Assembly: GCA_950295325.1 (NCBI GenBank)
Contig: OX485805.1
Span: 15,301,501-15,365,500 of the forward strand
Direction: 5' to 3'
Origin: Polytrichum commune
Taxonomy: Eukaryota; Streptophyta; Polytrichopsida; Polytrichales; Polytrichaceae
DNA length: 64,000 nt
Shown here: positions 5,753-29,934 of the stretch, piece after piece
Layout of the letters: every line of letters begins with the position of its first letter
Position numbering within the stretch: the first letter of the stretch is position 1
Position numbers and translations under genes: made by a program
Notes under the pieces: generated by a model
Seen by the model: the letters and a program-made list of their open reading frames with translations, nothing else
What the model was told of the DNA's origin: nothing
Database searches by the model: none

Positions 5753-6740
5753 TTTACGAACGATCGTTCGTTAGCTACAGCCGAAATGGAGGGCTTATGC
5801 ACACGAACGATCGTTCGTAAGTTCCAGCCGAAACATAGGGGCGGATGCATACGACCGATCATATGTATGTTACAGCCGCGACAGTGTTAGGCAGAAATGA
5901 TTGGACACGTCCGAATAGAGATATCTATAGCCACGTTACATGGATACATGAAATCCAATATCCAGTGGAAAATGACAATCAACATCTATCACTAAAATCA
6001 TGATTGAACAGATACGAACGAGCGTTCGTATCTATCATAAACACGGTGTAGTCCTCTACACATGCTTGCGTCAACAGGTCTGTTGGTGGATGCGTGGACG
6101 GTGGACAGGTGGTATTTACGAACGTGCGTTCGTAAAATTGGAAAACATAATTCTCCGTGGACATAAATGGTAGTGCGAAATACGAACGAGCGTTCGTATC
6201 TATCCTAAACATGGTATAGTCCTCCACACATGCTTGCGTTAACAAGTCTGTTGGTGGATGCGTGGACGGTGGACAGGTGGTATTTACGAACGTGCATTCG
6301 TAAAATTGGAAAACATAATTCTCCGTGGACATAAATGGTAGTGCGAAATACGAACGAGCGTTCGTATTTAACTTCCATATTGTTAACGTGGCCAATGCAC
6401 GGAAGTGTATAAATTAAGGAATGTTTATGGATTCTTGAAAAATAATCCCAGGTGATATTTACGAACGTACGTTCGTAAATATCCCATCATCAGATGTTCT
6501 GTTGGAGAAAACGGTTACACGGGAACTCATGCGCGTCTGGGTCTTGAAGGCAGATATACGAACGTACGTTCGTATATAATCGACACAATTTTCGTGCCTA
6601 GTTTTGTCTATAAGTAACTCAATGTCGAGTACGGTTGTGATCAACTTACGAACGCACGTTCATAAACAACTCACATCATATCTATGTACCTCTTGTACAC
6701 GTGCTACCAACTCACGTTTACGAACGTGCGTTCGTAAACG
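5753..6740. repeat. Palindrome cluster A (TACGAACGNNCGTTCGTA), upstream of E2 transposase
   Basis: Eleven good copies start near 5753, 5802, 6012, 6115, 6180, 6284, 6348, 6457, 6554, 6646 and 6717, with one decayed copy near 5849. The centres are AT, AG, TG, TA or CA. Flanking T and A often extend the arms to TTTACGAACG/CGTTCGTAAA. The cluster lies between the transposase start and its presumed promoter. Confidence 0.95.
6013..6348. repeat. 168-bp tandem duplication carrying two palindromes per unit
   Basis: Units 6013-6180 and 6181-6348 are almost identical. Each runs from one AG-centred palindrome through a TG-centred one to the next. The second unit has a C-to-T-type decay in one palindrome arm (GTGCATTCG). 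Confidence 0.9.
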
Positions 6741-6744
6741 TCCG

Positions 6745-7010
6745 GTATTTGCGGCGGTATATACGGGTATGTGCAGTCTGTAGTGGACCTGGGAGGTGTA
6801 GGGTTGGCGCACAAGAAAATGGTTTGAACGCGTTCCAGTCAGGTCTGTGGAGCGTACACTTGGATGTGCCGCAGAAAAGAGCTCTTCTGTGGGGGGAAGA
6901 GCTTTAAGTACCTTCCCCCCGATGGTTCAAAATCCCTTGGATGCTATTTAAAAAGCGGATTCCCGCCGCCTACTTTGACCTAACAATATGCCATTCCATC
7001 CATGCGCAAT
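6745..7010 (-). promoter_or_regulatory. Candidate transposase promoter of E2
   Basis: This block is conserved with 12280-12560 although the DNA beyond it differs. Read leftward it has a TATA-like CTTTTTAAATAG (6955-6944), then a long leader containing palindrome cluster A before the transposase start. The conservation is seen; promoter function is inferred. Confidence 0.4.
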
Positions 7011-7120
7011 ATATAAATATCATTATGTATGGAACATGTCTTGCGTGCACGCAATATATTGTAAATCTATAAATCCGTCACACACCTTAATTGTTACCAA
7101 GGTCGCACGAAAATATGTCT

Positions 7121-7206
7121 ATATGTCTATATGTATATATATATATATATATATTTTACTATTTTACTATTTTATATATGGGTTATTATATTATATATAT
7201 ATGGGT
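7121..7206. repeat. AT-rich microsatellite
   Basis: Runs of TATATATA with interspersed TTTTACTA and TATATGGG. The same position in E1 (about 12655-12700) is also a TA microsatellite. Confidence 0.85.
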
Positions 7207-7350
7207 TGATGGGTTAACATTGAGTATTAAATTATTTGCGACTAAGGTGTGAAGTCCAAGTGAATTGATGAAGGTCTAAGTGATATATATATTCACACAC
7301 ACAATGAGGTAAGAGTGGCTAAGAATATATTGTGGAATCCCCTAAAATAA

Positions 7351-7386
7351 CACTATATTCGTTAATCGGAGACTTTTGAAAGTCTC
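7351..7386 (+). repeat. E1 left terminal inverted repeat
   Basis: It matches the E2 left end with one substitution (AATCGG for AATTGG), including the GAGACTTTTGAAAGTCTC hairpin. Confidence 0.85.
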
Positions 7387-7750
7387 AAAATAAAATATGC
7401 CCATAGTTTGGGATGCCAATATTGTGGGCATATGGAATGTTGGGAACATCAAGAACATGACAATTTAAAAATTCGCACGTAAAGAATATTCCTAATACTA
7501 AAAATAGAAAATTGCAATTATAATGAAAACGTGAACTCCATGTGGAAAATAACAAGCGAATATAAAAAACAAATGGTTTATGTCATTATAGAGTTTGGGG
7601 TGCGCATCCCATAAGTAAGGCTCTTATGAATTTGGATGGCACATCCCAAACGTATACCACAATGGAGTGTGACAAGTCCACTAAGTCTATTAAAAACCAA
7701 ATCTACTAATCACCCATGTTTTTCGCCATTAACTCCCACCTATGTTATGT

Positions 7751-10700
7751 TTACACATCTCCATCTTTCGCTTCATATCCATTCTCGGCGTCATTTTCTG
7801 CCGCTGCAATACGTGCCAAGTTGTCTTTGGCAAAATCTATATGTTTTTGGGGGATGGTCATTGCTTCTGTGTTGGAACCTTTGCGCGGCTTCCAAGCACA
7901 AAGTATAGTATCCGTGTTTATCCAAACCGGTGTGTACGCTGAGTCCACTGTCCACTTAAAATTCTTTATGGTGTCCCAACCTAAATAAGTGCGGAGCACG
8001 TTGTGGTCTTTAGTGCTTGGACGACAATATTCCACCTCAATTTGACGAAAGTTGGGGCTAGTTCGAACAAAATTGGGTGAAGACAATGCTTTTACCAACC
8101 AAATTGGCTTGGGATGCTCCTCATCCCCAGCTCGTACGAGGACCAAATACCCTTCATGGCAATCAACACCTACACGAAACGACGGTGCCGGTCGATTGCG
8201 GGCAGGGCCAACGTAATGCTCGTCCATTGCGAACTCTTCACAAACGTCTCCATTGCTGAAAAACATAGTATCGGACTCGACAACCGTCAAACGACTTTGT
8301 GGCCAAAATCCTTGTGTCAAAGTCGTACGGGTGTCGCCACCAAGTGCCATCAAGGCTGAGCGAATGCGATCCCAATACGCGATCAACGGTTCATGGGTAT
8401 CTCTAACACGTCTTGTGATGTCCTCCTCGCACAACTCTTTCCAATATTCAATGAATCCGGATATGCCTTTGATGATTTCCGGCCCATTCCTCATGGGGTC
8501 GGGTTTGCAAGGCTTTGGTTCCCCATCCGGGAGCAAACATTTGCCATCATTGTCTTGACGCCATACGAGTATACCATCATCCGGGCCCCAATTAGGAGAT
8601 GTGCACAAAAGCTTGAATTGCATGGCCGGGAGACCATCGTCCCTCATATAAAATCGGAATTGTTGTGCTTTGGTATGCCCCACCAAACGGTCCCCTCCCT
8701 TCAACATGTATGGCTTGATGAAGGCCTTGAAATTTGGTACTTCCTCAATCAAGTGCGGAATTACTGGCATATGGTCCAAATCCATATACGATTTCATAAG
8801 AAGAGGTATGGTTGGAAAATCTTCTTCATGCAACTTCATGCTCCACCGTCCGAATGATGCATCAATGTCGTTGTGTGTATGTCCCACCATCAAGAAAGAC
8901 ACAAACACCTCCTTGAAGATTCCTTTCGCCACGAGCAATGACCAAAAACAAAATACGTATCGACATTTGTTGTCCTTCGCACAATTATCAAGTTGAACGT
9001 GGAGAGTTGGAGGCAATGGTTTTGCACAAATGGGCTCTCCGGGTGGTTCTGGCAATGACGACATACAAACCTCCTTCCCCAAAAGCACTGCCTCATAAAG
9101 GGATGTGGTTCCACAACCATCAAAAAGTGCACGGGAAGAATGTACCGGTGGCTTCTCAAGATCGCGCAACAGTTTTGCAAATGAACCCACCGTGTGGTTA
9201 GCATCCCCAGGGTAAAAATCCAAACCATAATGGGCATACTTTACGTCCCCATGGCCGTGGGCAATCATACCTGGAAAAAACAAACGATGCGTGACCAAAA
9301 TAATCAAATAACCACTAAACGGATGTATGGAGTTGGACATTTGCCAAACACACCCAAGAAAATTGGATAGACTTTAAACACGTAGTTGTGATTTCATACA
9401 AACCTGTGACAGCTACGGGCAACTTGAAGAGACCATCCGTGGCCTTTATTTTGCGTGCATAACAAGGGCATGCGGTTTTGGCGTGGTCCATTTTATCATG
9501 GATGACTGTTAGAACCTCTGTGGGCCTCATTATGGATAGAGCACGATTCTTATAGTAATCTTGACGGTGTGCCTCTTGATTGTTGACATGTTCAATATAT
9601 TTTTTCTGGTGTCTGGAATGAGATTCAGTGCCTATGGGGTGGGCGTCTCGAAGACCTTTGTATTTTTCACACGTCGTACATCTAGCGAACTTATCCCCGG
9701 GTCTTTTCAGAATGTATTCCGCAAACTGCTGGTTTTTAATCACACTCAACTTGGACAAAGAAATGGGCCCACATCCCGCTATGCGACCCACTTCATTGAT
9801 GTCCGTTAAGATGTTCTTCCATTTTGTGCCCGTGGGCAACACCATTTGAACAACCTTCTCCCCTGACGACAATGTCCTCGTCTTGTGGGGCATTGCATCG
9901 GCCAATGGCACTATGATGGTGGATAGTGTCGCGGACGCTTGCAGTGTAGCCTCCCTAGGTTTCTTTGTGCCCGAGTTGCCATGAAATCGAGAGCGGCGAC
10001 CCAACGATGAATATTTTCGAAACCTATAAAAGTCAGCCTTGGAGACGGCGTGGATGGTATACCACGCTGTACAACACACATCAACATTCTCAAGTGTCAC
10101 CACCTTATGCCCATGGGTATCAAGGTGCAAATTTCTGTGGACCTCGAGTTTCTTAGCCGACCTCATACGAAAATCCGCAAGCCACATCTCTTGACGTAGA
10201 GATCTAATTTTCTCCCGCGGGAAAAATTGGCAACATTTCCTCGCGCAACAATCCTTGCCGGACACTAGACGGATAGATTCGTCCCCCAAAAGCCGATCCC
10301 GTCGACGCTCATTATCTCCGCGAGGCACACGGTTTGAATCATATCTACGGAGGCCTTTGCGAGGACGTGTTGTGGCCAACAAAGCTAATTGTGTTTGCTT
10401 ATGCCGCCGCTCATGATCCCACAAACTCACTTCCTCATGTAGAACTCGACGAAGCGGCCATCGACGCAAGGAAAATCTCCATGTCACCGGGAACTCTACC
10501 GGAAGCAAAGAGTTCAAGATGCACACGCCAACATCATCGAGACCTAGGGCGTTGGCATCGACACAATCACGGGGATTGGAGTTTCTACATATACCATCTG
10601 CCACCGGGACACCAACCTCGTTGAGTAGAACGACATCAAGGCCAACCCATTGCTCCCTCCCGAAACCGGCACACAACGGAATGTCATCGTGGTCATCTCC

Positions 10701-10880
10701 GGAATGCAGAGATTGTTCGTGGACTTCCAAAGATTCATGGGAGGATGTATCCACAAACACCCCCCTCACGTTTGGCACACCATTACTATCTGCCGACGGG
10801 GAAGACAGTTCACATTCCGCATCGGATGACGATGCATACGTCGACAACTCCAATGAACTATCACCCACATGCAACGCCAT
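7751..10880 (-). CDS. DUF7869-type transposase of CACTA-like element E1 (intact)
   Basis: Two exons, 10880-9404 and 9270-7751, join in phase to give 998 residues. The intron has a GTTTGT donor and a TTTTTTCCAG acceptor and splits a Gly codon (AVT-G-MIAHGHG). The start at 10880 is the first Met before an acidic, Ser-rich N-terminus that is also kept in E2; an upstream in-frame Met at 11057 is possible. The N-terminal third is variable and basic. A Cys/His cluster (CTTCEKYKGLRDAHPIG) precedes KNRALSIMRPTEVLTVIHDK. The second exon has QLDNCAKDNK and GHTHNDIDASFGRW. Asp in IHDKMD, QLDN and HNDID are my candidates for a DDE/RNase H-like triad. Family membership in DUF7869 is recalled, not searched. 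The protein would act in the nucleus on the CACTA ends. The TATA-like block near 12490 could drive it. Confidence 0.8.
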
Positions 10881-11201
10881 ACAGCCTATACCAACCACCA
10901 GGACATGATCAACCCAACCACCACCGCAATGCATACAAGAGAGGATAGAATATATGTGGAGATAAATGGCCCAAAATTGACAAACAAATTTTGGTGCACC
11001 ATTGGAGAACCTCACGCACAAAGACGAACGCGCGTCCCAAAAAAACGTTTTAAGCATACGTCTAGGTTGTTCACTAATGTAAACAATACATGGACAAAGA
11101 GGAGAACACTCGTTAGTCGTCCAGGAGGGCCCTGCTGTTCGGACCAGCGCCTGTCCACATACAACCGACGACGAAATCAGAAATCCGAGAACGTCACATG
11201 C

Positions 11202-12278
11202 ATTTACGAACGCGCGTTCGTGACCTCAGTAACTTCTCCATGTACATCCGGCGGCCTTCGAGATCCCTCAAATGAGAGCACCCTGAGGAATATCGGTTTT
11301 GTAGGTCAAAGTACCATGTTGACTTAGGAACCTGCGCGATATACTATCACAAGAGAACACTTGTCCATACGCACAAAATTAGCAAATCTGCAGATGATGC
11401 CTGAATCAACTCCAACAATATTTTGAACACTGAGCACCTCCATATTGTGAATTTGATTATGTTGACTTTTGCGTACCTACCCATTTACGAACGGACGTTC
11501 GTAAATGGGTGCGACCCCGTGTTCACATCCTTCACGGACGAGCGATGAGCATATTTTTCTTGCTATTCTGTGTTCGTAAATTACTGCCATACTAATGTGC
11601 ATGAATGAAGATGTGTTGCTGGATGCGTAGACAATAATGACATGTATTTACGAACGAACGTTCGTAAATTTCCGACCATCAGGTAACAATAGATACGGGT
11701 CAAATAAGTATGTATGATCCTCGAAGGCATATTTACGAACGCACGTTCGTAAATGACTGTCATGGATTAAGTGCATGTGACTAACCATATGAGTACCTCA
11801 ATCCAGAACATGCTCTCATGTGGGATTTACGAACGCACGTTCGTAAATTACCGACCAACAGGTACCAATAGACAAGGGTCAAATATGTATGTATGAAACT
11901 CGAAGGCATATTTACGAACGCACGTTCGTAAATAAATGCCATGGATGATGTGCATGTGACTATCCATGAGTAGCTCAATCCAAAACATGATCTCCTGTGG
12001 GATTTACGAACGCACGTTCGTAAATTACCGACCATCAGGTACCAATAGATAAGGGTCAAATATGTCTGCATGGTCCTCGAAGGCATATTTACGAACGCAC
12101 GTTCGTAAATAACTGAGATGGATTACGTGCATGTGACTATCCATATGAGTAGCCCAATCCAGAACATGCTCTCATGTGGAATTTACGAACGCGCGTTCGT
12201 AAATCCTTGCCATGTCCAGGTCCGAATCGTTTGTCTAAACCTGAAGCTCTTCATCTTTACGAACGTGCGTTCGTAAAG
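11202..12278. repeat. Palindrome cluster B, upstream of E1 transposase
   Basis: Ten copies start near 11202, 11484, 11645, 11732, 11826, 11909, 12002, 12087, 12181 and 12255, mostly of the form ATTTACGAACGCACGTTCGT plus AAAT. Isolated half sites lie near 11540-11580. The cluster occupies the same place as cluster A in E2, but the sequence between palindromes is not conserved, so the motif rather than its context is kept. Confidence 0.95.
11645..12180. repeat. Tandem units of about 178 bp, two palindromes each
   Basis: Three units share ACCGACCAACAGGTACCAAT-like and CATGTGACTATCCAT-like spacers with palindromes at fixed distances. They are unrelated in sequence to the 168-bp units of E2, so local amplification happened independently in the two copies. 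Confidence 0.8.
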
Positions 12279-12279
12279 T

Positions 12280-12560
12280 TCCGGTATTTACGGCGGTATA
12301 TGCGGTAGGTACAGCCTGTACTGTACCTGGGTGGTGTAGGGTTGGCGCACACGAAATGGCTTGAGCGCGTTCGGTGAGGTCTGTAGAGCGCACACTTGCA
12401 TGTGCCGCTGAAAAGAGCTTTGTTGTGGGGGGAAGAGCTTTAAGTACTTCATCCCGCTGGTTCAAAATCCCTTGGATGCTCTTTAAAAAGCAGATTCCCG
12501 CCGCCTTCTTTGACCTAACAATCTCCCATTCCATCCATGCGGAATTATATAAATAGCATT
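12280..12560 (-). promoter_or_regulatory. Candidate transposase promoter of E1
   Basis: This is the conserved counterpart of 6745-7010. It includes a GC-rich block (GATTCCCGCCGCC read on the plus strand) next to a TTTAAAAAG that reads CTTTTTAAA on the minus strand. Transcription leftward would pass cluster B before reaching the transposase start at 10880. Confidence 0.4.
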
Positions 12561-12654
12561 GTCATGTATGGAACATGCCTTGCATGCACGCCAACATATT
12601 GAAAATATATAAATCGGTTGCACACCTTAGTTGTGACCAAGGTCTCATCGAAAT

Positions 12655-12810
12655 ATATGTATATACGTATATATATATATATATATATACACATAATGTC
12701 TAAATATGGAGATGGTTAACATTGAATATTTAATGATTTGCGACTAAGGTATGAAGTCCAAGTTAATTGACAATTGATGCCTAATAAAGTTATGAATGTC
12801 GAAGTCATAG

Positions 12811-12851
<41 letters not shown>

Positions 12852-12856
12852 CAATG
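12655..12856. repeat. Two TA/CA microsatellites
   Basis: TA runs at about 12660-12700 and 12810-12830; the second continues into (CA)n up to about 12854. Confidence 0.85.
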
Positions 12857-12889
12857 AGGTCAGAGTGGCTAAGAAACATGTTGCGGACG

Positions 12890-14490
12890 CCCCTAAAATT
12901 ATAGGTATCATATGTTTCACATCAAAAAATGACCGTAATATGGTCACCAAGTGCATGAATACAACTAAAAAATCGGGTTAATCCATAATGGCTTGCACTA
13001 GGGTAGATTGAGGACACTATGAACTAATTATACCTAATAATATATGTAAGTTAGGTCTTCTTTCAAATGGTATCTAGGTGTGAAAATAAGGAATTAAAAT
13101 GGCATGAGTAGGAAGGATTAATCAATTTGTAATGCTGCATAGTATGATAGCGTAATGATCATTGAGACTTGAAACCATACTAGCTACCGTAACGTTGAAT
13201 CATAGTTACAATTATTATGTGTTTGACGTCCTATTGGAAATTGAATTTTCGTCCACTTGTTGTAAGGGTACGGATACACATTGGTTAAATGTTTATTAGA
13301 TCATTGGTGATATTTATAGTGGAATGCATTGTTCGATTGTTAGTTTAAGTTGACACATGATTAAATGAGTTGAGGTCCTATTGGAAATAGACTTTTAGGG
13401 TTTGGGGAAATGCACTATTAATTTGGAATGGTGCATACAATAGTATGTACTTACAATTAATATATGTTTTGCATCCTATGAGAAGGATGTGCATCATCAT
13501 AGCTTAAAGTGTTGATATAAATTGAAGTCTTAAGACATGCATGTTATTATAATAAGATCGTGGATTGTGTGATGAAATTTCACTCAGAACTATTAAGGTG
13601 AAAGTGGGAATATTTGAAATTTTACTTATCACTTAAACCAAAGTTTTATCTCAAATCTATTAATTTGGAATGTGAAATTGACAATTGCCATCATTATCAA
13701 TTATTATAGTTGTTATGAACGGAATTAAGCATTCTCCATCCAACCAACATTGGTAGACCAATTTGACCTGCCCTCAGAAAACAACATGGCCACATATAAG
13801 AAAGGTTGGTAAGATAAAAAGATGCAGGGATGTAGGGTTTAGGGTTTGCGGTTAGGGTTTAGGGTAAGGGTTTGGGGGTAGGGTTTAGGGGTTTAGGGTT
13901 TGTGAAAGTTGTGTATGTGGTATTTGGGTTTAGGTTTTAGATTGTTACTAGGATACATTACACACACAAACAATATTGACTCCTCAAAAACCCTTGTAAT
14001 TGCATTAACTTCATTCATCGCAAGCTCGTAGTTGATGCTAGCAAAATAGTTGACCACTCCAGAAATGCATTAGTTCAAGCTAACACCTAATATTAGAACT
14101 TGAATTGACATCCTATCGTATAGCAACTCTGCGCAATCTCATATTATTATGAATTCTTTTTTGCATGTAATATTTATTTGAGGAACCATCGAATTAATTG
14201 AAAGATATCTAGCTCTTACATAAACTATATTTTAAAACACCAGATATATATCTTTGGGGGTGGATTCTACATTGACAACCTAGGGAGTGACATGCATTGT
14301 TTATTACGAATTAACTGAGCATATTTTCCTAAAATATGTTTACAAGGAATCCAAATGTAGAGGTACTAAGGAAATAAAACGAGTAAAATTCATGTATTTG
14401 AACTAAGCTTGTCAAGTTAATGCCTTAAACGCGTCCATTACATATAAATATGTCAAAGCATGAGAATAACATGAAGGGTTCCAATATACA
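12890..14490. other. E1 central spacer, no gene seen
   Basis: AT-rich DNA homologous in patches to 19440-21180 of E2 (for example GGTATCATATG and ATGGTCACCAAGTGCATGAAT). It separates the leftward and rightward genes. No frame of quality is present. It contains the telomere-like stretch listed separately. Confidence 0.6.
13832..13901 (+). repeat. Telomere-like TTTAGGG stretch
   Basis: Imperfect repeats of TTTAGGG or TTAGGG lie on the plus strand inside E1. A shorter counterpart is at 20149-20185 in E2. Confidence 0.85.
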
Positions 14491-14494
14491 ACCA

Positions 14495-14580
14495 TCTCCC
14501 ATCTCCCATCGCATCCCATCCCATCCCATCCCTTCCCATCACCTCCCATACCATCCCATCCCATCTCTCTCCCAACCCTA
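14495..14580. repeat. CCCATC microsatellite, short allele (E1)
   Basis: Runs of CCCATC and CCCAT just upstream of the conserved G-box/telo-box block. The E2 counterpart has grown to about 330 bp. Confidence 0.9.
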
Positions 14581-14595
14581 GCCAGTGGAGTTGTG

Positions 14596-14622
14596 CCACG
14601 TGGCAGGTGCTGGGAAACCCTA
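14596..14622 (+). promoter_or_regulatory. G-box and telo-box of the E1 right-arm gene
   Basis: CCACGTGG (14596-14603) is followed 12 bp later by AAACCCTA (14615-14622). Both are kept at the same spacing in E2 (21536-21562). G-boxes bind bZIP/bHLH factors, and telo-boxes are common near plant transcription starts. A TC-rich tract follows. This is the likely core of the rightward promoter. Confidence 0.55.
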
Positions 14623-14739
14623 GCGGCGCACCTACCTCCCCGCGCCCCTTCCTCTTCTCCTCATTTGTCATTTCGAGGAGAGGAGGAGCGGAGCGTTTAG
14701 AGAGCGAAGCTCTTGCTTTTTTTAGTCTTGAAGTTTTAA

Positions 14740-15090
14740 ATTAGTTTTGTTGCAAGTTTTGAGAGATTTCAGATTGAGAGCTTGTGTGAAAGCTTTTGAA
14801 TTTGTGAAAGCTTTCATTGTGAAAGCTTTCAGTGTGAGAGTTTGTGAGTTTCAAAAGCTTGAGAGCTTGAGTAGGAAAGCTTCAGAGTTTCGGATTGAGA
14901 GCTTGAGGGTGATCTTTAGAAGCTTGAGAGTTTAAGGAAGCTTCAGAGTTGAAGCTTGAGAGTTTAAGGAAGCTTCAGAAGTGAAGCTTGAGAGTTTAGG
15001 GAAGCTTCAGAAGTGAAGCTTGAGAGTTTAGGGAAGCTTGAGAGTTTAGGGTTTGCTTAAGAGTTCAGAAGCTTGAGAGCTACAAGGTTG
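14740..15090 (+). repeat. GCTTGAGAG leader repeats (E1)
   Basis: Many imperfect copies of GAAGCTTGAGAGTTT occur between the promoter block and the first apparent donor at about 15265. The same kind of array is at 21710-22010 in E2. It probably forms the first, untranslated exon. Confidence 0.8.
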
Positions 15091-15264
15091 TGAGTTTTGT
15101 GTACATAGGAGTATACTAGGGTTTGTATATAAGCTGTGAAGGCTTGAGGTCTGCATTAGAGAGTTATCTGAGTGTGCATTTGAAAGGCAATTGAGTGTGC
15201 AGTTGTGAGGATTTCTGGGATTTTCAGAAAGAGAAGAAGCAGGGATTGCAGTGTGCAGCATTTC

Positions 15265-16224
15265 AATGTAATTTGTTATCCTTTCCAACTCCTCTCACAT
15301 TCTGAAAATGTTGCTTCTTGAATTCAATTTCTTTTGTTACATGCAATGTGAACTATCACTCTTTTCTTCATGTTTCATTCTGCATCTCATTCTGCATCTC
15401 AATTGCTTTATGATTGAAGAATTGCATCATTCTGACCAAAATTTTGCAGGCACGGCTGCAAGCAGAGTAGCTAATAAGTGAGTTATATACATATACGTAT
15501 ATATACGTATTCGTATATACACGAATACATATATGTACGGACAGGGGATCCCAAAACCATCACATATACGAACGCTCGTTCGTAAATGGACATACACTGC
15601 ATACCCACCTCCATTTACGAACGCTCGTTTGTAAATGGACATACACTGCATACCGAACCTCCATTTACGAACGTGCGTTCGTAAATACGCACTCCACGTT
15701 CTTTGAAATGATCTATATTTACGAACGCACGTTCGTAAATATACTCAAAATATCACTCAGAAGGAACCTTAACTTAAATATGAACCTCTATGAATATCTA
15801 AAGAACAAATACAATTTTGCGAACACCAATAAGACAAATCACATGTACTTACGAAAGATAAATCAACCAAATATCCGAAAAGATAGACCAAATGGACATA
15901 CTTACGAACGCACGTTCGTAAATGAATCCAAACCTATAAAACCTATATCTTTTACGAACGATCGTTCGTAAAAATAACCAAATATATTACAAACACATTC
16001 ATGACGAGTAGTCTCTTTGATCTTCATATCTTTTACGAACGCTCGTTCGTAAACTCAATACTAAAAATTTATATGATCTTGCAACCCCTCATTTACGAGC
16101 GAACGTTCGTAAATATAATTACATCAATTGCAAAGACGCATTAACACTGCGTAGTCTGTGGGATATGCATGTCACTTACGAACGTTCGTTCGTAAAGTCA
16201 CTAATTGTTTATATTCTGTTGCAG
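15265..16224 (+). other. Leader introns of the E1 right-arm gene
   Basis: CAATG is followed by a GTAATT donor (about 15267), a TTTTGCAG acceptor (about 15449), a short exon, then a long intron ending TTCTGTTGCAG directly before the ATG at 16225. E2 has the same arrangement. The second intron is filled with palindromes. Confidence 0.5.
15567..16196. repeat. Palindrome cluster C (E1 leader intron)
   Basis: Nine copies start near 15567, 15611, 15661, 15717, 15901, 15950, 16031, 16091 and 16174. The centres are CT, TG, CA, AT, AA and TT. Two carry single-base decay (GTTTGT, ACGAGCG). Confidence 0.95.
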
Positions 16225-17937
16225 ATGGCAAGATCAAGCAGAAGCGCCATTGAGATGTTCGCGGTGAAGGTCGATGGCCTCCCAGAGTCGGTGTTAGACG
16301 ATAACGGCAACGACAACTATGTCCCCAAGGAAGACTTCATGGGGGAGTGGACGGCACTGCCAGAGAAGATCGGGGACGGCCTCTTCTGCATGCGCATCCA
16401 GGCGACACAGGCCTCTCAACCGGAGCGTGAGGCAGAGGCCATGGAGACAGAGGCGGCTGCAGCTGTGGAGGTTACGAACGCGCGTTCGTTAATCGTTGAG
16501 GAGGGACCTGCTGCTCGGTCCAGCGCCGCTACCCCTCCCCCCGATGACGAGGTAACTCTCCTCTGAGAATACCATTTTTTAACGAACGCGCGTTCGTAAC
16601 CTCTCTAACATCGCGATGTTTTTCTCTTCATCGACATCTAGTGGCCTTGCGAGAGCCCTCTTCAGCGGTCCCCCTTAGGGCCGAACAGTTTTGTAGGACA
16701 CGGCATCATTTTGCCTTAGGAAAATGTGATAGACTATCACGTGAGAAATGTAAATATTCAACGGATTAATATATGAGCCTATGTTATCTGCATCGCGTTG
16801 CTTCAAATTCTCTGCCCTCGACCCCTTCTCGTATGTTGTATATGTTGATGAGATTATGTTCATTCTTGCATACCCACCTCATTCGCGAACGCTCGTTCGT
16901 GAAAGGCTGCGACCCACTGTCCACCTCATTCGCGAACGACCGCTCGTAAATGTACGTGTAGCCGCGCTCACGAACGAGCGCTCGTAAATGATGCGCACCG
17001 CCCCCGCAGCCTTCATTCACGAACGCTCGTTCGCAAGTGTGCCCTTGAGCACATTTTCCTTGCACTCTCCTCACTTCCTCGTCTTTCCCCATAATGCACC
17101 GTCTTCATTTTCTACGCAAAATTTCATTATTGGATCATAGAATTAAACTAGTCGAGTTGTTCATCACAGGACCCCCCGGAGATTGGTCGCAACCCCTCTA
17201 CCAGTGGACCTCCCACCCGGAACAAACCTTTCATCGTTTTTGACCTCAACGGGGTGTTGTGTCACACCCAACACATCCCAAGGGTCCCCACGCGTCCCTT
17301 CCGTCACCCCGACGAAAGGGACTACGACGGCGAGCTCGACACCCTCATTAACCGCAAGGCTGTCCGCGCCCGTCCCGGCTTGCGTGACTTCCTTCGCGAG
17401 GTGGTCGAGTTCGCTCACGTCATTGTGTGGAGCTCCATGGTCATGGAGAACACCGAGCCCATCGTGCACTTCTTGTTCCGCGATCTCCCGAGCCCTTGCC
17501 TCGTCCTCGGCCAAGAGGACTGCGACGAGCTGCTCGACGAGAAAGGTCAACCGGTGCCCAAGTTTGGCGGTCGGGGCGGAGGACAACAGTTCCTCAAGGT
17601 CCTCCGCTCGAGACTCTGGCGAGGCGTCCCCCGTCTGCAAGGGACGCCGCACGGGTGGTGGCCGACTCCAGAGAACACCGTCCTCATCGACGACAGCCCC
17701 ACCAAGAGTGTCTTAAACCCCCCGGGCAACGTCATCTTCCCGGACACTTGGACCGGCGATAGGCAAGACACATTTTTGGTCGATAGGCTAGCCCCCTACC
17801 TTAGAAGGCTCGTGCTCCACGCCGGTAGCATCCCATTTTTTGTTAGGTCCAACCCCTTCGGCAATGCGGCGCTAAGCCCCCGCGATAATGTATTCAAGAG
17901 CATCATGAGGCTCGCCAAACTCAATAAATTGATTTGA
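16225..17937 (+). CDS. Internally deleted right-arm protein of E1 with FCP1/NIF-type phosphatase domain
   Basis: Exons 16225-16551 and 17170-17937 join in phase 0 (GAG/GTAACT donor, CATCACAG acceptor) for 364 residues. The start follows a splice acceptor directly. Residues 1-59 match the N-terminus of the long E2 protein. An in-frame deletion then jumps to its tail near QPEREAEAMETEAAA. From about residue 130 the FCP1-like HAD domain begins: FIVFDLNGVLCH (motif I, with Asn in place of the second Asp of DxDxT/V), VIVWSSMV (motif II) and NTVLIDDSPTK (motif IV). FCP1/SCP enzymes dephosphorylate the RNA polymerase II C-terminal repeat. The Asp-to-Asn change, also present in some plant relatives as I recall, makes activity uncertain. 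The intron carries palindromes at 16578, 16884, 16930, 16967 and 17016. Confidence 0.7.
16473..17039. repeat. Palindromes in the last coding exon and intron of the E1 gene
   Basis: One copy (16473-16490, centre CG) is coding and is read as VTNARSLI. The other copies, near 16578, 16884, 16930, 16967 and 17016, lie in the intron. The last four are the most decayed, with GCGAACG and CGCTCG arms. Confidence 0.9.
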
Positions 17938-18048
17938 AATGCCTCCATGTCTTTGCTTGTATCATGTGGTTCACATTTACTAATGCTTGCTTCGTTTTTG
18001 GATGTCTTTTGTTGTTGTGATTGTTGTTGTTGTTGTTCTTGCCCATAG

Positions 18049-19049: not shown

Positions 19050-19411
19050 TGTGACGTCTAGAAGCGTACTAGTGGGACGGACTCCCTAAATGGGCTTAGG
19101 TGTAGAACATATTTAAGTGCTTACTTTCTATGCTATTCCAAGTTACTCAAGATATTGATGGTATTTCCATTATAATTGTATTTCAATCCCAATTAATTCA
19201 TTCAACTTCCATTCATTCTTCGCACCTTCCCTTCCATTCATAACGAGTTGTGATTTCATACGCAACTATTTTCATGTATGCCTCACATTTTTGTTCACTT
19301 CCATGCCTTTATGTATAATAATAGTAGCATACCATTATACATATGGAATTTTTAGTCGTCATTACTGGTCCAATTTTGAAAGGTGCATCCTTATATAGTC
19401 TCATAATCAAC
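19050..19411. other. E1 right subterminal region
   Basis: Noncoding DNA nearly identical to 29935-30293 of E2. It probably contains the 3' UTR of the proline-rich gene. Confidence 0.6.
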
Positions 19412-19439
19412 AAAAAGTCTCCAAATACCGAATATAGTG
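19412..19439 (-). repeat. E1 right terminal inverted repeat
   Basis: AAAAAGTCTCCAAATACCGA followed by ATATAGTG is the inverse of the left end. It is followed by TTA and then E2 sequence. Confidence 0.85.
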
Positions 19440-20148
19440 TTAAATTGTAGGTATCATATGATTCACATAAAAAAAATGCTTGTAATATGGTCACCAAGTG
19501 CATGAATACCAATAAAAAGTCGCTTAATCCATAGTGGCTTGTGCTAGGTAGATTGAGGACATTTGGAACTGGAGGCTCACCAAACATCGGCCCATATTAA
19601 TATGACTCATTGTTGCAATTCATCATTGGTGAAAATTAAAGTTTAATGCACTAGTATTTGATCGTTAGTTCAAGTTGACACCTAATTAAATGACTTGACG
19701 TCCTATTGGAAATTCACTTTAGGTCCACCATGGTGTGGACATGGATAACTAATTTGGAATGGTGCATACAATAGTATGCACTTACAATTATATATTTGTA
19801 TTATTTGCAACAAGAAGTATGTGCATGACCATAGCTTAAACTGTTGATTTAAGTTGAAGTCTTAAACCATTCATGTTATAATAAGACTAAGTGTGTATTT
19901 TGTGATCAAATTGCACTCAAAACTATTAAGGTGAAAGGGCTAGCATTTCAAAATTCACTCTTCACCCCCTAAACCAATGTTTTATATCAAAATGACAATC
20001 ATTGGCACGAGTCTAGATTATTATAGTTGCTATGACCCAAATAAAGCAAGTTCCAATCGAACCAACATTGGTAGACCATTTTGACATGAAACGCATAGAC
20101 CACAACATGGCCATATATAAGAAAGGTTGGTAAGATAAAAAGATATAG

Positions 20149-20185
20149 GATTTAGGGTTTAGGGTTTGGGGTTAGGATATAGAGT
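20149..20185 (+). repeat. Short telomere-like stretch in E2
   Basis: GATTTAGGGTTTAGGGTTTG is followed by a degenerate GGGTTAGG. It occupies the same relative place as 13832-13901 in E1. Confidence 0.75.
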
Positions 20186-21518: not shown

Positions 21519-21535
21519 TAGCCAGTGGCCACTAG

Positions 21536-22439: not shown

Positions 22440-22515
22440 TTCATACCAACATATATATGTATATATACATATATGTATCAGTATATGTACGGATATATGT
22501 ATATAAATAAATATA
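22440..22515. repeat. TATATG microsatellite in E2 leader
   Basis: TATATATGTATATATACATA-type runs occur just before palindrome cluster D. A similar TATACGTAT tract is at 15485-15540 in E1. Confidence 0.85.
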
Positions 22516-22540
22516 CCATTTCCTAATCCCAGATGACCAC

Positions 22541-23108
22541 ATTACGAACGTTCGTTCATAAATGTGGCGTGAATACATGCCTTACCCCACAAACATATAC
22601 GAGCGTGCGTTCGTAAATACGCACCTCACCCTCCATTTTTACGAACGCACGTTCGTATATTCGTCTATACCCTGTACATCAGAGAAATCCTCAAATCAAA
22701 TTACACATACAAAAATACGAACGAACATTCGTAATCACAAACTATAACAATATACCAAACCCTTCATGGTAATTGTCTGCTTTCCCTAGTAGCATAATTT
22801 ACGAACGCACGTTCGTAAATAAGAACTAAAGTATTAATTCACCTATTTCAAAGATGCTCATGGAAATTAGAACAATCCTCGTGGAAATTAGATAACCCTG
22901 GACAACGCGTAGACTTGTTTAGAAACAATACGAACGCACGTTCGTAAACTTGAGCCAAATACACCTTAGCAACCACATTCTTTACGAACGATCGTTCGTA
23001 AATGAAATCAGCGAAGACATCATTAAAACTCCTCACGGGTACCCATAGCCAGCATTCATTGATTAGTATATATGATTTGCTTGTCAATTACGAACGCTCG
23101 TTCATAAA
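22541..23108. repeat. Palindrome cluster D (E2 leader intron)
   Basis: Eight copies start near 22541, 22597, 22637, 22714, 22799, 22928, 22981 and 23087. Several have a decayed arm (GTTCAT, ACATTCG). They lie in the intron that ends CTCTGCAG directly before the ATG at 23139. Confidence 0.95.
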
Positions 23109-24430
23109 CACAATACTAAATGTTTATGTGCTCTGCAGATGGCTAGACCGAGCAGGAGCGCCATTGAGATGTTCGCAGTGCAGATAGATCAGCTACCAGA
23201 GTCAAAGTCGGACCCCAACGGAAACGATAATTATGTCCCCAAGGAGGACTTCATTGGGGAATGGACGGCACTGCCAGAGAAGACATCAGAAGGTCTTTTC
23301 TGTCTTCGCTTCACCTACGAGCTGGAAACGACGCCGGACCAGCTAAGCAATGGGTGCAGATGAAGACTTGGGAAGTAGAATCAATTGAGGCACAAGGAGA
23401 TTATGTGATTTTAGACATGAAAAATAAGAAGGATCACATTAACCTCCTGTTAGAGTACAGGAGACATAGTTTCTCCTACACATACGCAGAAAATAACGTA
23501 GTGGCTGATGCCAAACACTTCCTCAAGGACCTGTTCACGAAGTACGCCCTGAGCTCGTACTGGACAACAAGGAAGTTGGCCGCGCTTTCCTTGAATATCT
23601 CCAAGTACAATAGCGCGGTCGCCGAAGCCAACAAGAAGAAGAAGAGCCCACAAAAACCATCCGCATCCGGGGCAGGAGGATCGAGAAGTGCATCCAGGCC
23701 GGTGCCTTCCGCGAGCAGGGTGACGGAGGGTCCCAGCCGACATTCCACACCATCGAAGAGGTCCCGGGACGAAATGGAGAGGTCTGGGGTAACAGAGGGC
23801 GCTGAGGTGAGCTCTCCTCCCCTGATGCCAACCCCTTTAAAGAAGGGTGAGAATCCAGATGCAGTGAAGGCAACAAAGATCCCACGAGATTTCAATAATT
23901 ACTCGAAGGATTGCTGGCCCATGGGGCGCCACTTCACGTTCAACGTGGACTGCTTCAAGTGCGAAAAGTCCCCCAACAAGTGGGTGGTAAGGTCTCGCGA
24001 GAGCGGTGGGGTGAAGTGGCAGATCAACAACCTCATGAACAACGTCAAGTGGAATAGGCAGACCGTCTGCGTCATGCCCAAGGGGCTGACATCCCGACCG
24101 ACAGAGATGGATTGGCCGCGAATCCAGAATGGAGAATTCTGGATTATAGATGGTCAGCATAGCTTGGAGGCGTCGCAACAGATCCTCAAGGACGACAACT
24201 TCCAGCACGAGCTGAAGGCTGACCTGCGGTACTGGAAGGCGTTCTTGGTCTGGTCGGACGATTGGGACAAGTTGCGCAAGATTTCAACCTTCCTGAACTC
24301 GGGGAACAAAATCAAGGCGTTCGAGGCTTCGTGGGCGGCCAACATAGTGGCTGCGAGAGACGTCTGGGTGGCACACGGATGCCCACCAAAGGAGAGGGAG
24401 AACGCCAAGAACCAGTCTCCTCAATGGAAG

Positions 24431-24488
24431 GTGAGTTTACGAACGAACGTTCGTATTATGTGCAACACTGACATCTTGTTTTGTGCAG
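24431..24488. repeat. Intron with one palindrome
   Basis: A 58-bp intron (GTGAGT donor, TTGTGCAG acceptor) whose middle third is TTTACGAACGAACGTTCGTA. Confidence 0.85.
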
Positions 24489-25815
24489 GCATTTTGCGAC
24501 GCGATGGTAGACAAGTTCTCTTCCATCGATATGAAGTCCACCACCACCAAGTCTGTGCTTGAGCTGAAGGGTGAGCTCAGACTAATCTGCTGCAATAGGG
24601 ACACATGGGACTTGTGGACGCAGTTTTTTGATGCACACAACTCGGGCGATTTGGTCAATCCCGACACGGAGGAGAAGTACAACACGGAAAAAACCGGTGA
24701 AGCGCCCCCACTACTGAGGGAGTTTTTTAGACACCTCCAGGGATTGACGGAGTCAGAGCTGAAGAGGTGTGCGATTCATGTTCTTGGGAACACCGTGAGA
24801 AGAAACCTTCCCTATCCCAAGATCTTTTTGAAGAGGCCAAAGCACAAGCCCGGGACGTACTCTATCAAGGAGTGGTGTGACCACCGGAAGCTGAAGACTG
24901 CTGCCATGAGAGAGTTGAGCGTACTCGTACCAGAGTACAAAATCTTTGAAGTCGACGGCGACATCAACTGGCCGCAATGGCAATTGTTAAAGGTCGACTA
25001 CAATATCAACAGAGCCTCCATGCGCAGTCTGGTCAAGGAGCACGCCTCGGTTTTGAAGTTGAAGGGGAACAAAAGGACTAAGAAAACCGACACGGATCCC
25101 CATGAGGTAATGCTGTACTTAAAAATTTTGGAGAGGAAGAGGAACGCCACATTCGAAGGAGTGGCAAGGTTTTGCGTGATGACCTCCGGCGTGGAGAGGG
25201 TCACATTTTCCAAGTGGGACGGCACCATCAGCAGGGCCGAGGTGAGGGAGGATCGACGGGGTTGCCCTTTTGCCCTGATCGATTTCAGGGGGATCCCGGG
25301 TGCGTCAAGGCAGGGGGGGGAAGGACATTCCCTTCTACAATCCCTTCATGGCCAAGTTCATGGAGTTCAAATCGCCGGCCATGAGGGAGCCACACGTTTG
25401 GCTGTGGATAGTCGAACAAGAGAAGTTGTCGTTCGTCACAGAGTTGTACGAGCAGAAGATCAAATTCGAGTACAGCATCTTCCACAGCACGTACGTGCCA
25501 ACGAAGACGGAGGGGATCGTGGCCATCAACGAGGCCAGGGGCAACAAGCAAGTGGGAGCGGTCAGCCTGATTTTCTTGACGTACAATGAGTTTAGGGATG
25601 GGCGACCGCCTATCAAGGCAAACAACACGTTCAAGAAAATCTACAGCATCCCGCATCCCCCTCCCAAGGATCTGTTGCAAGAGACCTTCTACACCGTCTT
25701 CCCCGCCATAGAACTCAGGATGGAGTTCTACGTCTCTGTATTGCAGAGTCTGGTTATAAGTGGAGAGACGGTATGCAACGTATGTGGAGGCTCCAAATTC
25801 ATGTATGCGGCCATG

Positions 25816-26037
25816 GTAAGTTGTCCAGACTCCATTTACGAACGCTCGTTCGTAAAGTTAACCAACTTCTCAATGTATTGTTTCACAGTCGCTGCACGTG
25901 ACGCATTCATGTTTACGAACGCTCGTTCGTAAACATAACCCCTTCGTAATGTAATGCTTGAAACTCGTTGCACGCTACGCTTTGATGTTTACAAACGTGC
26001 GTTCGTATTTTCTGACCTTATTGCTATCTTCTCACAG
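25816..26037. repeat. Intron with three palindromes
   Basis: A 222-bp intron (GTAAGT donor, CTCACAG acceptor) with copies near 25837, 25912 and 25988. It splits the methylase-like motif I region (MYAAM/MMGLVV). Confidence 0.85.
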
Positions 26038-27022
26038 ATGATGGGTCTCGTAGTCAACACATTTGTTGACGCTATCGACGAAGAAGACTTCAAGATCCAC
26101 CGTGCAAAGGCGTCGACGATGGACCTCAAGGACATCTCTGTCCCCAGGATGGACTTCAGTATGCCCGCCGACGAGGGCATACCATTCCACGATTATGAGG
26201 ACGACGAGCCCGCCCCCTCCGCCAACGTGGACGCCATTCTGCAGTCCTTCGACGTACCCCCACTTCGGATCTTGCCGCCAACAACAGATCTTCCCGACCC
26301 TCAAGGAACGCCGGGTGGTTATACCGGGTCGTCCGCGGGGACAACCCTGGACGTCCTCCCCGCGAGAACATCTCTTGCGGAGCCTTTCGGAACGCCAGGC
26401 GGATGCTCGACGTCACAGTCTCCAAGGCCCGCCGTGGTTCCGAAGATGGAAACCCTGGACATCCTCGACCAACGCTCATGGCCATCTTTGGACCTCTTCC
26501 GCAACACGAGGAGGAGGATGAAGAAGACTCCATACGTGGAGTTGCCGCCGGGAGCAATCATCGAGGTCTCGGACGAGGACGAGGGGGACATGGACATCAT
26601 GGCCGAGCTTGGGGTGGACTACGACAAGAACAAGCGAGTGAAGGAGGAGGCACTCACCGTCGCTGAGCTCAACGCCAAGCTGGAGGCGAAGATGAAGGAG
26701 GAGATGGCTGCAGCACAGGAGGAGAACGCCAAGCATCTGGCCAGGCTGCAAGAGCAGCTGAGGGATTCAGCGGCCAAAACCGACGCCATCTTCGAGATGC
26801 TTAGAAACATGCAGAGCTTCTCTGCGCCGGTCCAGCAACCTTACCCCTTTCCCCTGGAGGATACCCCTCACAGCCCCCACCTCCAGTCATGTACCAAGGA
26901 GGGCCTTCCCACCAAACAGCGCCACACCCAACGCCGGCGGGAAGTCCATTGCCCCCGGAGGTGACGGCGGCCGCCTCAACCTCCCACGATGCAATCACGG
27001 CGGCGCTAAGGGAGGACGAAGA

Positions 27023-27936
27023 TTTACGAACGCGCGTTCGTGAATCTTCAGGTCCGGCAGTCCTCACCCCTCCCCCTTCAAGGGTAGGACTGCCCACAGA
27101 CACCGACACGGCCTCTTTCACCGTCGTCCCAAGGGTTCTAGATAGGCGGGGCGATGACACTGCGCAACACACTGACATGGTCATTGTGGAGGAAACGCAG
27201 GGGAGCCCCAATGACTCGGCAGGTCCACATGGGATGGTCGTGGAGAGCCCTGACCAGGAACGACATCCGTCCGCGCACATGGAGGATGTCCGCATGGAGA
27301 GACTCGACCTGGGCGGAGACAACGACGTGGAGCTCATCCAACAGACCCAGTCGTCTCAGGAGGAGCGTCCAGCGGAGGTCATGGAAGCAGAGGCTGCTTC
27401 CCCAATGGATATTACGAACGCGCGTTCGTTAATCAAAGAGGTAACTCATCTCTGAGAATGCCAAATGTTTTACGAACGCGCGTTCGTAACATCACTAACC
27501 CCCCGCGTTGTGTTCTTGGCGCTTCAACTCCATCGACATCACGTTGCCCGCGCGAGAATTTTTCTACGTGATCGCTTGGGCCGACCAATTTTGTAGGACA
27601 CTGCATTTTTTCCTTAGGAAATTGTGATAGATTATCACGCGAGACAAATGTACATATTCACCGAATTAATATATGAGCAGACGATCTCTGCTCACATCCC
27701 CTTAACTTATTGCATATTATTCTCGCGTCTTGTGTTGTCTGTGCTCTTGCGCGTCCTTGCATTCTTTGCATACACACCTCACTCACGAACGCTCGTTTGT
27801 AAAACTGTGCGACCCCGTCTCGACCTCCTTCACGAACGAGCGTTCGTATATGTACGCATCCGCGCTCATGAACGAGCGTTCGTAAATGATGCGCACCGCC
27901 CCGCAGCCTTCATTGACGAACGGTCGTTCGCAATTG
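27023..27936. repeat. Palindromes in the tail exon and last intron of the E2 gene
   Basis: Two copies are coding: 27023 (read as DLRTRVRESS) and 27412 (read as ITNARSLI, as in E1). Intron copies lie near 27468, 27783, 27829, 27867 and 27914 and correspond one to one to those of E1. Confidence 0.9.
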
Positions 27937-28936
27937 TGCCCTTGTGAACATTTTCCTTGCACCCTCCTCACTTCCTCCTCTTTTCCCATAATGCATCGTC
28001 TTTATTTTCTACGCAACAATTTCTTTATTGGATCATAGAATTAAACTAGTCGCGTTGTTCATCACAGGACCCCCCGGAGATAGGTCGCAACCCCTCGACC
28101 AGTGGACCTCGAACCCGAAACAAACCGTTCCTCGTTTTTGACCTCAACGGGGTGTTGTGTCACACCCAACACATCCCAAGGGTCCCCACGCGTCCCTTCC
28201 GTCACCCCGACGAAAGGGACTACGACGGCGAGCTCGACACCCTCATTAACCGCAAGGCTGTCCGCGCCCGTCCCGGCCTGCGGGACTTCCTTCGCGAGGT
28301 GGTCAAGTTCGCCCACGTCGTTGTGTGGAGCTCCATGGTCATGGAGAACACGGAGCCCATCGTCCACTTCTTGTTCTGTGATCTCCCGAGCCCTTGCCTC
28401 GTCCTCGGCCAAGAGGACTGCGACGAGAAAGGCCGACCGGTGCCCAAGTTTGGCGGTCGAGGCGGAGGACAACAGTTCCTCAAGGTCCTCCATTCAAGAC
28501 TCTGTCAAGGCGTCCCCCGTCTGCAGGGGACGCCCCACGGGTGGTGGCCGACTCCTAAGAACACCCTCCTCATCGACGACAGCCCCACCAAGAGCGTCTT
28601 GAACCCCCCGGGCAACGTCATCTTCCCGGACACTTGGACCGGCGATAGGCAAGACACATTTTTGGTCGATAGGCTAGCCCCCTACCTTAGAAGGCTCGTG
28701 CTCCACGCCGGTAGCATCCCATTTTTTGTTAGGTCCAACCCCTTCGGCAATGCGGCGCTAAGCCCCCGCGATAATGTATATAAGAGCATCATGAGGCTCG
28801 CCAAACTCAATAAATTGATTTGAAATTCCTCCATGTCTTTGTTTGTTATCATGTGGTTCACATATCTAATGCTTGCTCTGTTTTTGGATGTCTGTTCTTG
28901 TTTTTTTTTTGTTCTTGTTCTTGTTCTTGCCCATAG

Positions 28937-29934
28937 TCTGCCCCCATATGCGACGCCCCTGTGGTCGATGGCCCTTCCCATCCCCTCTCGCCCCCGGCAT
29001 CCCCTTCCCGCGACATCACGGACTTCCAAATGCCATCCCTCTACCACTTCTCGGCGGTCGACGCGGCATCGGCCGTGGATAACTCCCGCGACGTGGGCAT
29101 CGACGACGGCGTCGTCAACAGCCCGCCCCCACCACTTGTCACCCGCGCGTACACCCCGTCGCCCTCCCCCCTCTCCAAGGAGAAACGGACGCTCGTTCGT
29201 TTGGGGCACCTCTCGCCCTCTAAAGACGACGGCGTTGCTCGTCGCAGGCCGAGCCAGCGTCTCCGCATGGAAGGCCCCCGTTGCCACACCTCCCCCGCCG
29301 ACTCCGTTCCTCCCCCCGCAACGTCCTCCGCTATCGTGGGCCCTCCACGCCTCGACTCCCCCCCGCCATCCAACAGTGCAATATTTCCATCGGCTCCGGA
29401 TGCTCCCGTCGACGCCCCCCTCGTTCCCACCGTTCCCCGCATGGACGTCCCCAAAGCCAAGGTGCCCTCCTCAACCCTAAACCCCTTTCGCGTTTTTTCT
29501 TCCCTTGTCTTCCGTTTGCGTGCCGTTCTCTTTACGAGCGCCCATCCCAAACCGCCCTCATTATTTTCCCCACTCCATTCCTATTCTTATCTTCCTATGA
29601 CGTTGTTTCGCAGGTGGCTACCCGCTCGCTTGGTGCCCGGCCCTCCTCCACGTCCTCCTTGGATAGGCACGCCCTCAAGGCCGCATCTTCCGAGTCCGAT
29701 CGTTGTCTGGCCCTCCGGAGAAGCGCAAGATGTTCCCTTTCGCAAACGCCCTCGTATTCTACTTATAATACCACCTCGTACAATTCGGGAGCGTGTCCTG
29801 AAACATGCAAGAACGACACATATTCCTGTCCAGGCAACACACAAGGATACAGTCGTGGGCCTGAGATTTTTAGAGCCATGGAGGCCGCCAAAAAAAAGGA
29901 CTTAGCCGCAAAAAAAAATAGTGGGTCGGACTAG
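28937..29934 (+). CDS. Proline-rich right-end protein of E2, two exons visible, start not found
   Basis: Exons 28937-29461 and 29614-29934 join in phase 0, giving 281 residues that are nearly identical to the E1 protein. The acceptor CTTGCCCATAG precedes the first exon and, as in E1, there is no in-frame ATG after it. The phosphatase gene has a phase-0 GT (SPRDN/GTATAT) that could splice to it. The protein is rich in Pro, Ser and Asp in its first half and ends in a basic Ala/Lys helix. No domain recognised. The in-frame palindrome (about 29185-29200) is kept exactly as in E1. Confidence 0.55.

Follow-up and report, generated by a model that had tools for sequence, protein, structure and literature searches.

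The genome of Polytrichum commune harbours transposable elements built around a DUF7869 transposase, and these elements carry, dispersed through their interior, a short palindrome whose sequence differs from one lineage of elements to another. The stretch analysed here, 64,000 nucleotides of contig OX485805.1 (positions 15,301,501 to 15,365,500, hereafter the window), holds two such elements, one nested within the other (elements 1 and 2), each with the transposase on the minus strand and a second gene, here named R, on the plus strand. An earlier note, made from the letters of the window, had read the palindrome as the binding site of a symmetric dimer. Judged from sequence this is still the best reading, as the spacing of the arms is strict, the arms are conserved, and sister lineages have palindromes of their own. 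This last point, that sister lineages fill the same compartments with another palindrome of like build, is the strongest evidence and had been missed by the note. We lean, by a modest measure, towards regarding the palindromes as lineage-specific sites by which an element recognises its own DNA: a dimer that the element encodes, most likely of the R product, would bind them and counter silencing.

The palindrome and its conservation

The palindrome, TACGAACGNNCGTTCGTA, consists of an 8-bp arm, two central bases and the arm again. It is found 53 times in the whole window at up to two mismatches, first at 5755 and last at 27932, as against a mean of 0.01 matches in 100 shuffled windows. With up to three mismatches, 57 matches lie within 5.7-29.25 kb, the last at 29184, in agreement with the roughly 57 copies first reported; by position, 31 belong to element 1 and 26 to element 2. 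The arm positions are almost invariant and conservation reaches one or two bases beyond them (TTTACGAACGNNCGTTCGTAAA), while the centre is free, with 11 of the 16 dinucleotides seen among the 53 copies, just as the note had described. Its four CpGs per copy are indeed present in perfect copies, and the absence that it reported from the remaining 35 kb is borne out, since none of six tested palindromes occurs at up to two mismatches in 30322-64000. Several clusters are tandem arrays with units of 168, 179, 49 and 76 bp, so part of the copy number reflects tandem duplication.

The genome, 407.8 Mb long and assembled in 64 contigs, contains 4680 exact copies. When gaps of 0-6 bp between the arms are allowed, 4680 of 4682 copies have a gap of exactly 2 bp, and the spacing is therefore strict. 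The genomic context was examined at 100 of the 4680 places, all on one contig (C1) and forming eight clusters: four lie at a match to the transposase or to gene R, one (L001) carries the terminal repeat of the element, two (L023 and L024) are element fragments by blastn, and one (L025) matches the elements weakly, at 75-76% over 142-162 bp. Seven of the eight are thus clearly in elements, and L025 has only weak similarity to them. The claim that the palindrome is confined to one family fits these places, but the family is spread genome-wide and is not local to the window. Within L001, the segment 7486-8687 is a diverged element with palindromes every 33-93 bp, an extreme array bearing the same tag; its centres are mostly GG and AG, and its spacers are unlike those of the window.

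The rate at which arms and surroundings change was compared in aligned non-coding DNA of diverged related elements, namely elements 1 and 2, E547 and E540II (the last at C1:5765318-5781387, loci L002 and L003). In these the arms differ at 5-7.5% of positions, the spacers at 12-14%, the near flanks at 18-24% and the central two bases, a fair internal control, at 21-44%. In three pairs the arms differ from the centres with Fisher p values of 6e-5, 2e-5 and 0.03 and from the spacers with p values of 4e-4, 8e-4 and 0.02, positions within one element pair not being independent. The E540II/L001 pair offers few aligned sites, at which 0 of 16 arm positions differ. The note's contention that the spacers are not conserved needs qualifying, since in the several clusters that are tandem arrays they are to some extent related.

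Lineage-specific palindrome classes

A further 17 DUF7869 loci (11 + 6) were cut out, chosen mainly for differing open-frame length, and 15 of them carry one palindrome class each. The classes are TACGAACG (two loci, L014 and L029), TACGGACG (three loci, L009, L010 and L026), TTGGGTCG (two loci, L004 and L005), CACGGGYG (five loci, L006, L007, L013, L027 and L031, the last on 2 sites) and GTGAGGCA (three loci, L008, L012 and L030). None of the 17 loci contains two unrelated classes. The AACG and GACG arms are one base apart, as are GGTG and GGCG, and such pairs cross-match under the two-mismatch rule; because of this, and because their sites lie close together in several places, GGTG and GGCG were counted as one class. 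The genome therefore has at least five classes, or six when CACGGGTG and CACGGGCG are split. Exact copies genome-wide number 10,011 for the TTGGGTCG class, 1254 for the CACGGGYG class and 203 for the GTGAGGCA class, and the reversed sequence of each, used as a control, gives 0. Placed on a transposase tree of 20 rows, the class labels (five and 'none') require 6 changes where the least possible is 5, and 0 of 200 shuffles is as low; near-identical rows favour this label test, and only 2 of the 16 inner branches are strongly supported.

Six compartments are occupied in each of three full elements of different lineages, E540II, E502 (L015 and L005) and E543 (L009 and L017): 5′ of the transposase, 5′ of R, intron 1, intron 2, the proline-rich exon and intron 3. 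Assigned by reading of coordinates and counted at up to three mismatches, the sites in this order number 10/9/2/2/2/4 in E540II and 17/13/4/3/2/1 in E502, each with one further weak site nearer the right end. E502 has 40 copies of its own class at up to two mismatches and 0 of the window's, and none of the E502 class was found in E540II. Within the proline-rich exon the palindromes of two classes read as unrelated peptides, FGSSDPN/FGSADPN in one and LRTRVR/TNARS in the other, so it is the DNA that is kept and not the protein. From these sequences, the differing palindromes of sister lineages look like wholesale replacement at the DNA level.

Gene R: predicted folds and divergence

The anatomy of R was taken from E540II, where exon 1 encodes an N-terminal region and a domain that we call DGQH, followed by exon 2, a proline-rich exon 3 and a phosphatase exon. 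The exon model was read from the genomic DNA without transcripts, with the introns as phase 0. Exons 1-3 match nothing relevant in Pfam or NCBIfam, and an exon 1 profile run against PDB sequences gave chance matches only (best E 0.048), so that R was placed by fold search alone. The exon 1 model has a pLDDT of 45 overall and of 61-85 in blocks over residues 271-380. For DGQH, the best 15 Foldseek matches are 6 ParB/KorB and 9 sulfiredoxin chains (probability 0.77-1.00), and VIA aligns it to ParB 7bnk with Z 10.6 and an rmsd of 2.1 over 95 residues. For exon 2 (pLDDT 50), the best 32 VIA matches are DNA amino-methyltransferases (N6A/N4C or so named), with Z up to 6.8; in support of this match, by eye, the exon ends in a motif-I-like GGSK..AAM, with GGSK or GGTK across lineages, and has a DFR-type sequence in place of DPPY. 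FCP1-like phosphatases have DLDG at their DxD motif, and the phosphatase exon here reads DLN (DLNG) in the window, E540II, E547, E543 and E502, so this domain may be a pseudo-phosphatase. On these predictions, R resembles a fusion of ParB and methyltransferase whose active motifs are altered, joined to an FCP1-like phosphatase.

In the aligned sequences R diverges faster than the transposase core. E540II and E547, which share the same code, are 95% identical in the transposase core, 81% in the R N-terminus, 94% in DGQH and 90% in the phosphatase. Between E540II and E543, whose arms are one base apart, the transposase core retains 86-91% identity, whereas the R N-terminus falls to 36% and DGQH to 51%, E543 being frame-broken in DGQH and the comparison extending over 92 columns; in the rest of R, identity is 54% in exon 2, 31% in the proline-rich exon 3 and 61% in the phosphatase. 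Against E502, the core of E540II stands at 66-75% and R at 21-43%. As far as these alignments show, palindrome class and R have diversified together.

The two nested elements of the window

The terminal repeat CACTATATTCG...GGAGACTTTT is present in four copies in the window, at 1762(+), 7351(+), 19439(-) and 30321(-), and what the note had treated there as one family is therefore two nested elements. The full ends of element 1 read AACACTATATTCG, and its flanks, TTAT and TTAG, match at 3 of 4 bases; element 2 has AAAT, a 4-bp target duplication, on either side. Exact 4-bp target duplications (AAAT, ATGA, CTTA) lie outside AACACTA in 3 of the 5 copies with both ends, and that of E540II fits only when shifted by one base. 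Element 2 has lost most of R and has kept its 26 palindromes. The features are as follows.

1762-30321: element 1 (outer), CACTA to CACTA, interrupted by element 2; terminal repeats at 1762(+) and 30321(-)
2163-5300, minus strand: DUF7869 transposase gene of element 1, two exons, limits approximate (open reading frames, ORFs; PF25273)
5755-6736: 11 palindromes upstream of the transposase of element 1, in part within a 168-bp tandem repeat
7351-19439: element 2 (inner), an internally deleted derivative; terminal repeats at 7351(+) and 19439(-)
7751-11225, minus strand: DUF7869 transposase gene of element 2 (ORFs 7751-9373 and 9315-11225)
11205-12275: 10 palindromes upstream of the transposase of element 2, in part within a 179-bp tandem repeat
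15567-16194: 9 palindromes upstream of R in element 2, probably within its leader intron
16473: palindrome in the remnant of the proline-rich exon, element 2
16581-17035: palindromes in the tail intron, element 2
17152-17937, plus strand: FCP1/NIF-like phosphatase exon of element 2 (PF03031, E=2.9e-16)
22543-23106: 8 palindromes upstream of R in element 1, probably within its leader intron
23139-24433, plus strand: gene R exon 1 of element 1, N-terminal region and ParB/sulfiredoxin-like DGQH domain; frame-broken
24438-24455: palindrome in gene R intron 1 of element 1, directly 3′ of the splice donor
24490-25815, plus strand: gene R exon 2 of element 1, methyltransferase-like domain (weak fold match); frame not single here
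25837-26007: 3 palindromes in gene R intron 2 of element 1
26038-27434, plus strand: gene R exon 3 of element 1, proline-rich (ORFs); palindromes 27025 and 27413 inside the coding sequence
27471-27932: 5 palindromes in the tail intron 5′ of the phosphatase exon, element 1
28050-28823, plus strand: FCP1/NIF-like phosphatase exon of element 1, within a 94% duplicate of 16866-19439, whose copy matches PF03031
29184-29201: weak palindrome, with 3 mismatches, in what is likely the last coding exon; counterpart at 18296 in element 2

The segment 2163-3911 matches PF25273 (DUF7869) with E=3.6e-39 and 134.8 bits, against a curated cut-off of 26, and the 150 scored genome matches to this family among those listed are above the cut-off. 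In the scanned transposase ORFs of the window PF25273 is the only match, with none to Transposase_21. The element 2 transposase is 91% identical in DNA to the element 1 copy. Gene R exon 1, frame-broken in element 1, is a single open frame in L003. Close copies genome-wide number at least 103 for R exon 1 and at least 83 for the transposase.

Degenerate TTTAGGG-like repeats occur inside both elements, at 13833-13902 and 20146-20175. In 4-kb bins, the observed/expected CpG ratio of the elements is mostly about 0.8-1.1, with a dip to 0.64 in 20-24 kb, and the bins from 32 kb on give 0.31-0.77; the elements have the look of being young or of bearing little germ-line methylation. Immediately to the right of element 1, the ORF 30774-31946 has by eye the look of a MULE/FAR1-type transposase, with no Pfam match, and at 36003-36029 an E502-type terminal repeat on the minus strand is probably the right end of another related element or a remnant. 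Elsewhere in the genome, L022 (C3:14137891-14138196) holds part of the plastid rbcL gene within a large contig that is presumably nuclear, likely a plastid-to-nucleus transfer; the rbcL on contig C8 reads as the land-plant type.

What would read the palindromes?

The R product would dimerise and bind the palindromes at many positions over the 16 kb of the element. Such binding might mark or coat the element and counter host silencing, or else regulate both divergent genes, and it would act in trans on every copy with the same tag, including internally deleted ones such as element 2. A change in the specificity of R would let a new palindrome spread and replace the sites throughout the element, helped by tandem duplication. 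By analogy with VANC of the VANDAL elements, anti-silencing would be the most likely role. A more specific version, in the manner of ParB and parS, is possible though doubtful: a clamp derived from ParB and a methyltransferase would load at the dozens of palindromes in introns, leaders and even coding exons and cover the element against silencing, and new lineages would arise when the protein and all the sites switch code, so that self copies alone are protected.

Several observations weigh against self-recognition through R. The note had named decay of the arms at the same rate as the spacers as a refutation, and in the diverged pairs the comparison favours its reading of a binding site, but in element 2 and E540II, which are near-identical, arms, spacers and centres do not differ in rate (arms 3/292, spacers 32/4602, centres 0/36), and arm conservation is partly inflated because the sites were called by likeness to the consensus. 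The link between palindrome and R, as read from sequence, is by descent alone, and five classes cannot separate co-evolution from co-inheritance. Two of the 17 loci, L011 and L028, are without a repeated palindrome; both group with the GTGAGGCA lineage, and are either decayed copies or truly devoid of it. E692 and E689, whose arms are one base apart, share 64% of the R N-terminus, 87% of DGQH and 87% of the transposase, so that only the N-terminal part of R runs ahead in this pair. The first ~120 residues of the transposase also diverge (46% between E540II and E543, 72% between E540II and E547), which makes this N-terminus a rival candidate for the binder. As for the folds, the overall confidence of both R models is low, neither has a Foldseek match at E up to 0.001 (best 0.012 and 0.0098), and the predicted methyltransferase likeness of exon 2, at Z 6.8, is weak. 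Pfam recognises no helix-turn-helix in R, and outside DGQH the model is mostly of low confidence. The CTP motif of ParB is GxxRxxA; the lineages read have GQHSLEA, GQHSVEA, GQHSVMA, GQHTLAA or GQHVEHA at this position, with the arginine replaced (GQHS/T/V), and the DPPY-like motif reads DFRG, DFRA, DFRN or DCRN. Neither CTP switching nor methylation may therefore work.

Transposases of CACTA elements (TnpA) and of MULEs bind repeated sites, and the palindromes could be those of the DUF7869 transposase itself, for synapsis or excision. This we consider improbable. The transposase N-terminus does diverge with the class, and a cluster lies 5′ of the transposase in every mapped lineage with sites. 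However, three elements have both ends known, and in none of them are the sites subterminal: E540II has its first site 3.9 kb from the left end and its last (up to two mismatches) 2.4 kb from the right, and in E547 and E502 the sites begin 3.7-3.8 kb in, with one weak site in E502 about 0.5 kb from the right end. They also fill the introns and a coding exon of the other gene, and the first 15 bases of the terminal repeat are common to E540II and E502, whose palindromes are unrelated. In some of E543, E692, E689 and E975, which are not among the three elements with known ends, single sites occur inside the transposase region. It is likewise unlikely, if not quite so improbable, that the palindromes are simply operators of a small feedback circuit, with R or the transposase acting as repressor or activator of the two divergent genes and without any part in silencing. 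Clusters stand 5′ of both genes in 3 of 3 full elements mapped by compartment, and KorB, a ParB relative matched by the model, is titled a transcriptional repressor in its PDB entry; yet introns 1-3 and the proline-rich exon are filled as well, and up to 40 sites per element exceed the apparent need of promoters. The sites of VANC, too, are spread through non-coding DNA, according to the portion of PMC5735166 consulted.

That the palindromes are a functionless satellite, amplifying itself by gene conversion or slippage, seems very improbable. Several clusters are tandem repeats and the near-identical pair lacks arm conservation, as such a satellite would have it, but the 2-bp spacing is strict, arms diverge less than spacers and centres most in the diverged pairs, and in other lineages the same compartments hold arms that are unrelated in sequence yet built alike. 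Scarcely any weight can be given to a role as RNA hairpins in transcripts, for splicing or small RNAs. Many sites do lie in introns and leader regions; a 2-nt loop, however, is too small for an RNA hairpin, and yet the spacing is fixed at 2 with a free centre, while transcription need not extend to the clusters 5′ of the transposase.

Comparison with known systems

Self-recognition by R has partial likenesses in several systems. The sites of ParB-parS and KorB are short inverted repeats, and R has the predicted N-terminal fold of ParB; it differs in the missing arginine of the CTP motif and in having no helix-turn-helix identified by Pfam, and the sites differ in being dozens, with a free 2-bp centre, across a eukaryotic transposon. 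CACTA/EnSpm elements have a 3-bp target duplication next to CACTA, Transposase_21 (PF02992) and TnpA sites. The present elements resemble them in CACTA after AA at the ends, an accessory gene and a repeated motif, but have a 4-bp target duplication, DUF7869 and sites that are internal instead of subterminal.

A close parallel is VANC of the Arabidopsis VANDAL elements; the consulted portion of PMC5735166 describes how its motifs, specific to each element, lie in introns and elsewhere in non-coding DNA and multiply in tandem, how the partner varies beside a better conserved transposase, and how methylation is lost (a later paper on this system, also consulted in part, is PMC10398659). The two systems have in common that short lineage-specific motifs occur in many copies within introns and other non-coding DNA, that these grow by tandem repetition, and that the transposase is more conserved than the variable protein that accompanies it. 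The motifs of VANC measure 8-9 bp and, in that portion of PMC5735166, are not described as palindromes. The VANC partners belong to DUF1985 and DUF287, both absent from the Pfam matches of the L003 R exons and the exon 1 relatives; since the protein families differ, the DUF7869 elements are not a VANDAL. Binding and loss of methylation have been demonstrated for VANC, whereas here they are inferred. ParB-methyltransferase accessory genes are reported from a Sola1 transposon of Ectocarpus, with similar proteins in green and red algae, and such genes are suspected of binding and modifying their own element; target sites are not mentioned in the portion of PMC12477816 consulted. By comparison with what that portion describes, the present case differs in its DUF7869 transposase, in belonging to a plant, in the degenerate state of the methyltransferase motif and in having both an added FCP1-like phosphatase and matched lineage-specific palindromes.

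A literature search with few subscription journals covered gave no match for DUF7869 and, among the titles and openings of abstracts listed, no report of lineage-specific palindromes tied to ParB-methyltransferase transposons. As far as this search reaches, the matched palindromic codes are the new part, ParB-methyltransferase accessory genes being already known from algal transposons. The genome offers at least five palindromic classes together with their protein variants, which makes specificity directly testable. If self-recognition by R is true, sequence-specific self-recognition directed against silencing would have arisen a second time, independently of VANC and outside the flowering plants, and these elements would provide a set of orthogonal DNA-binding modules.

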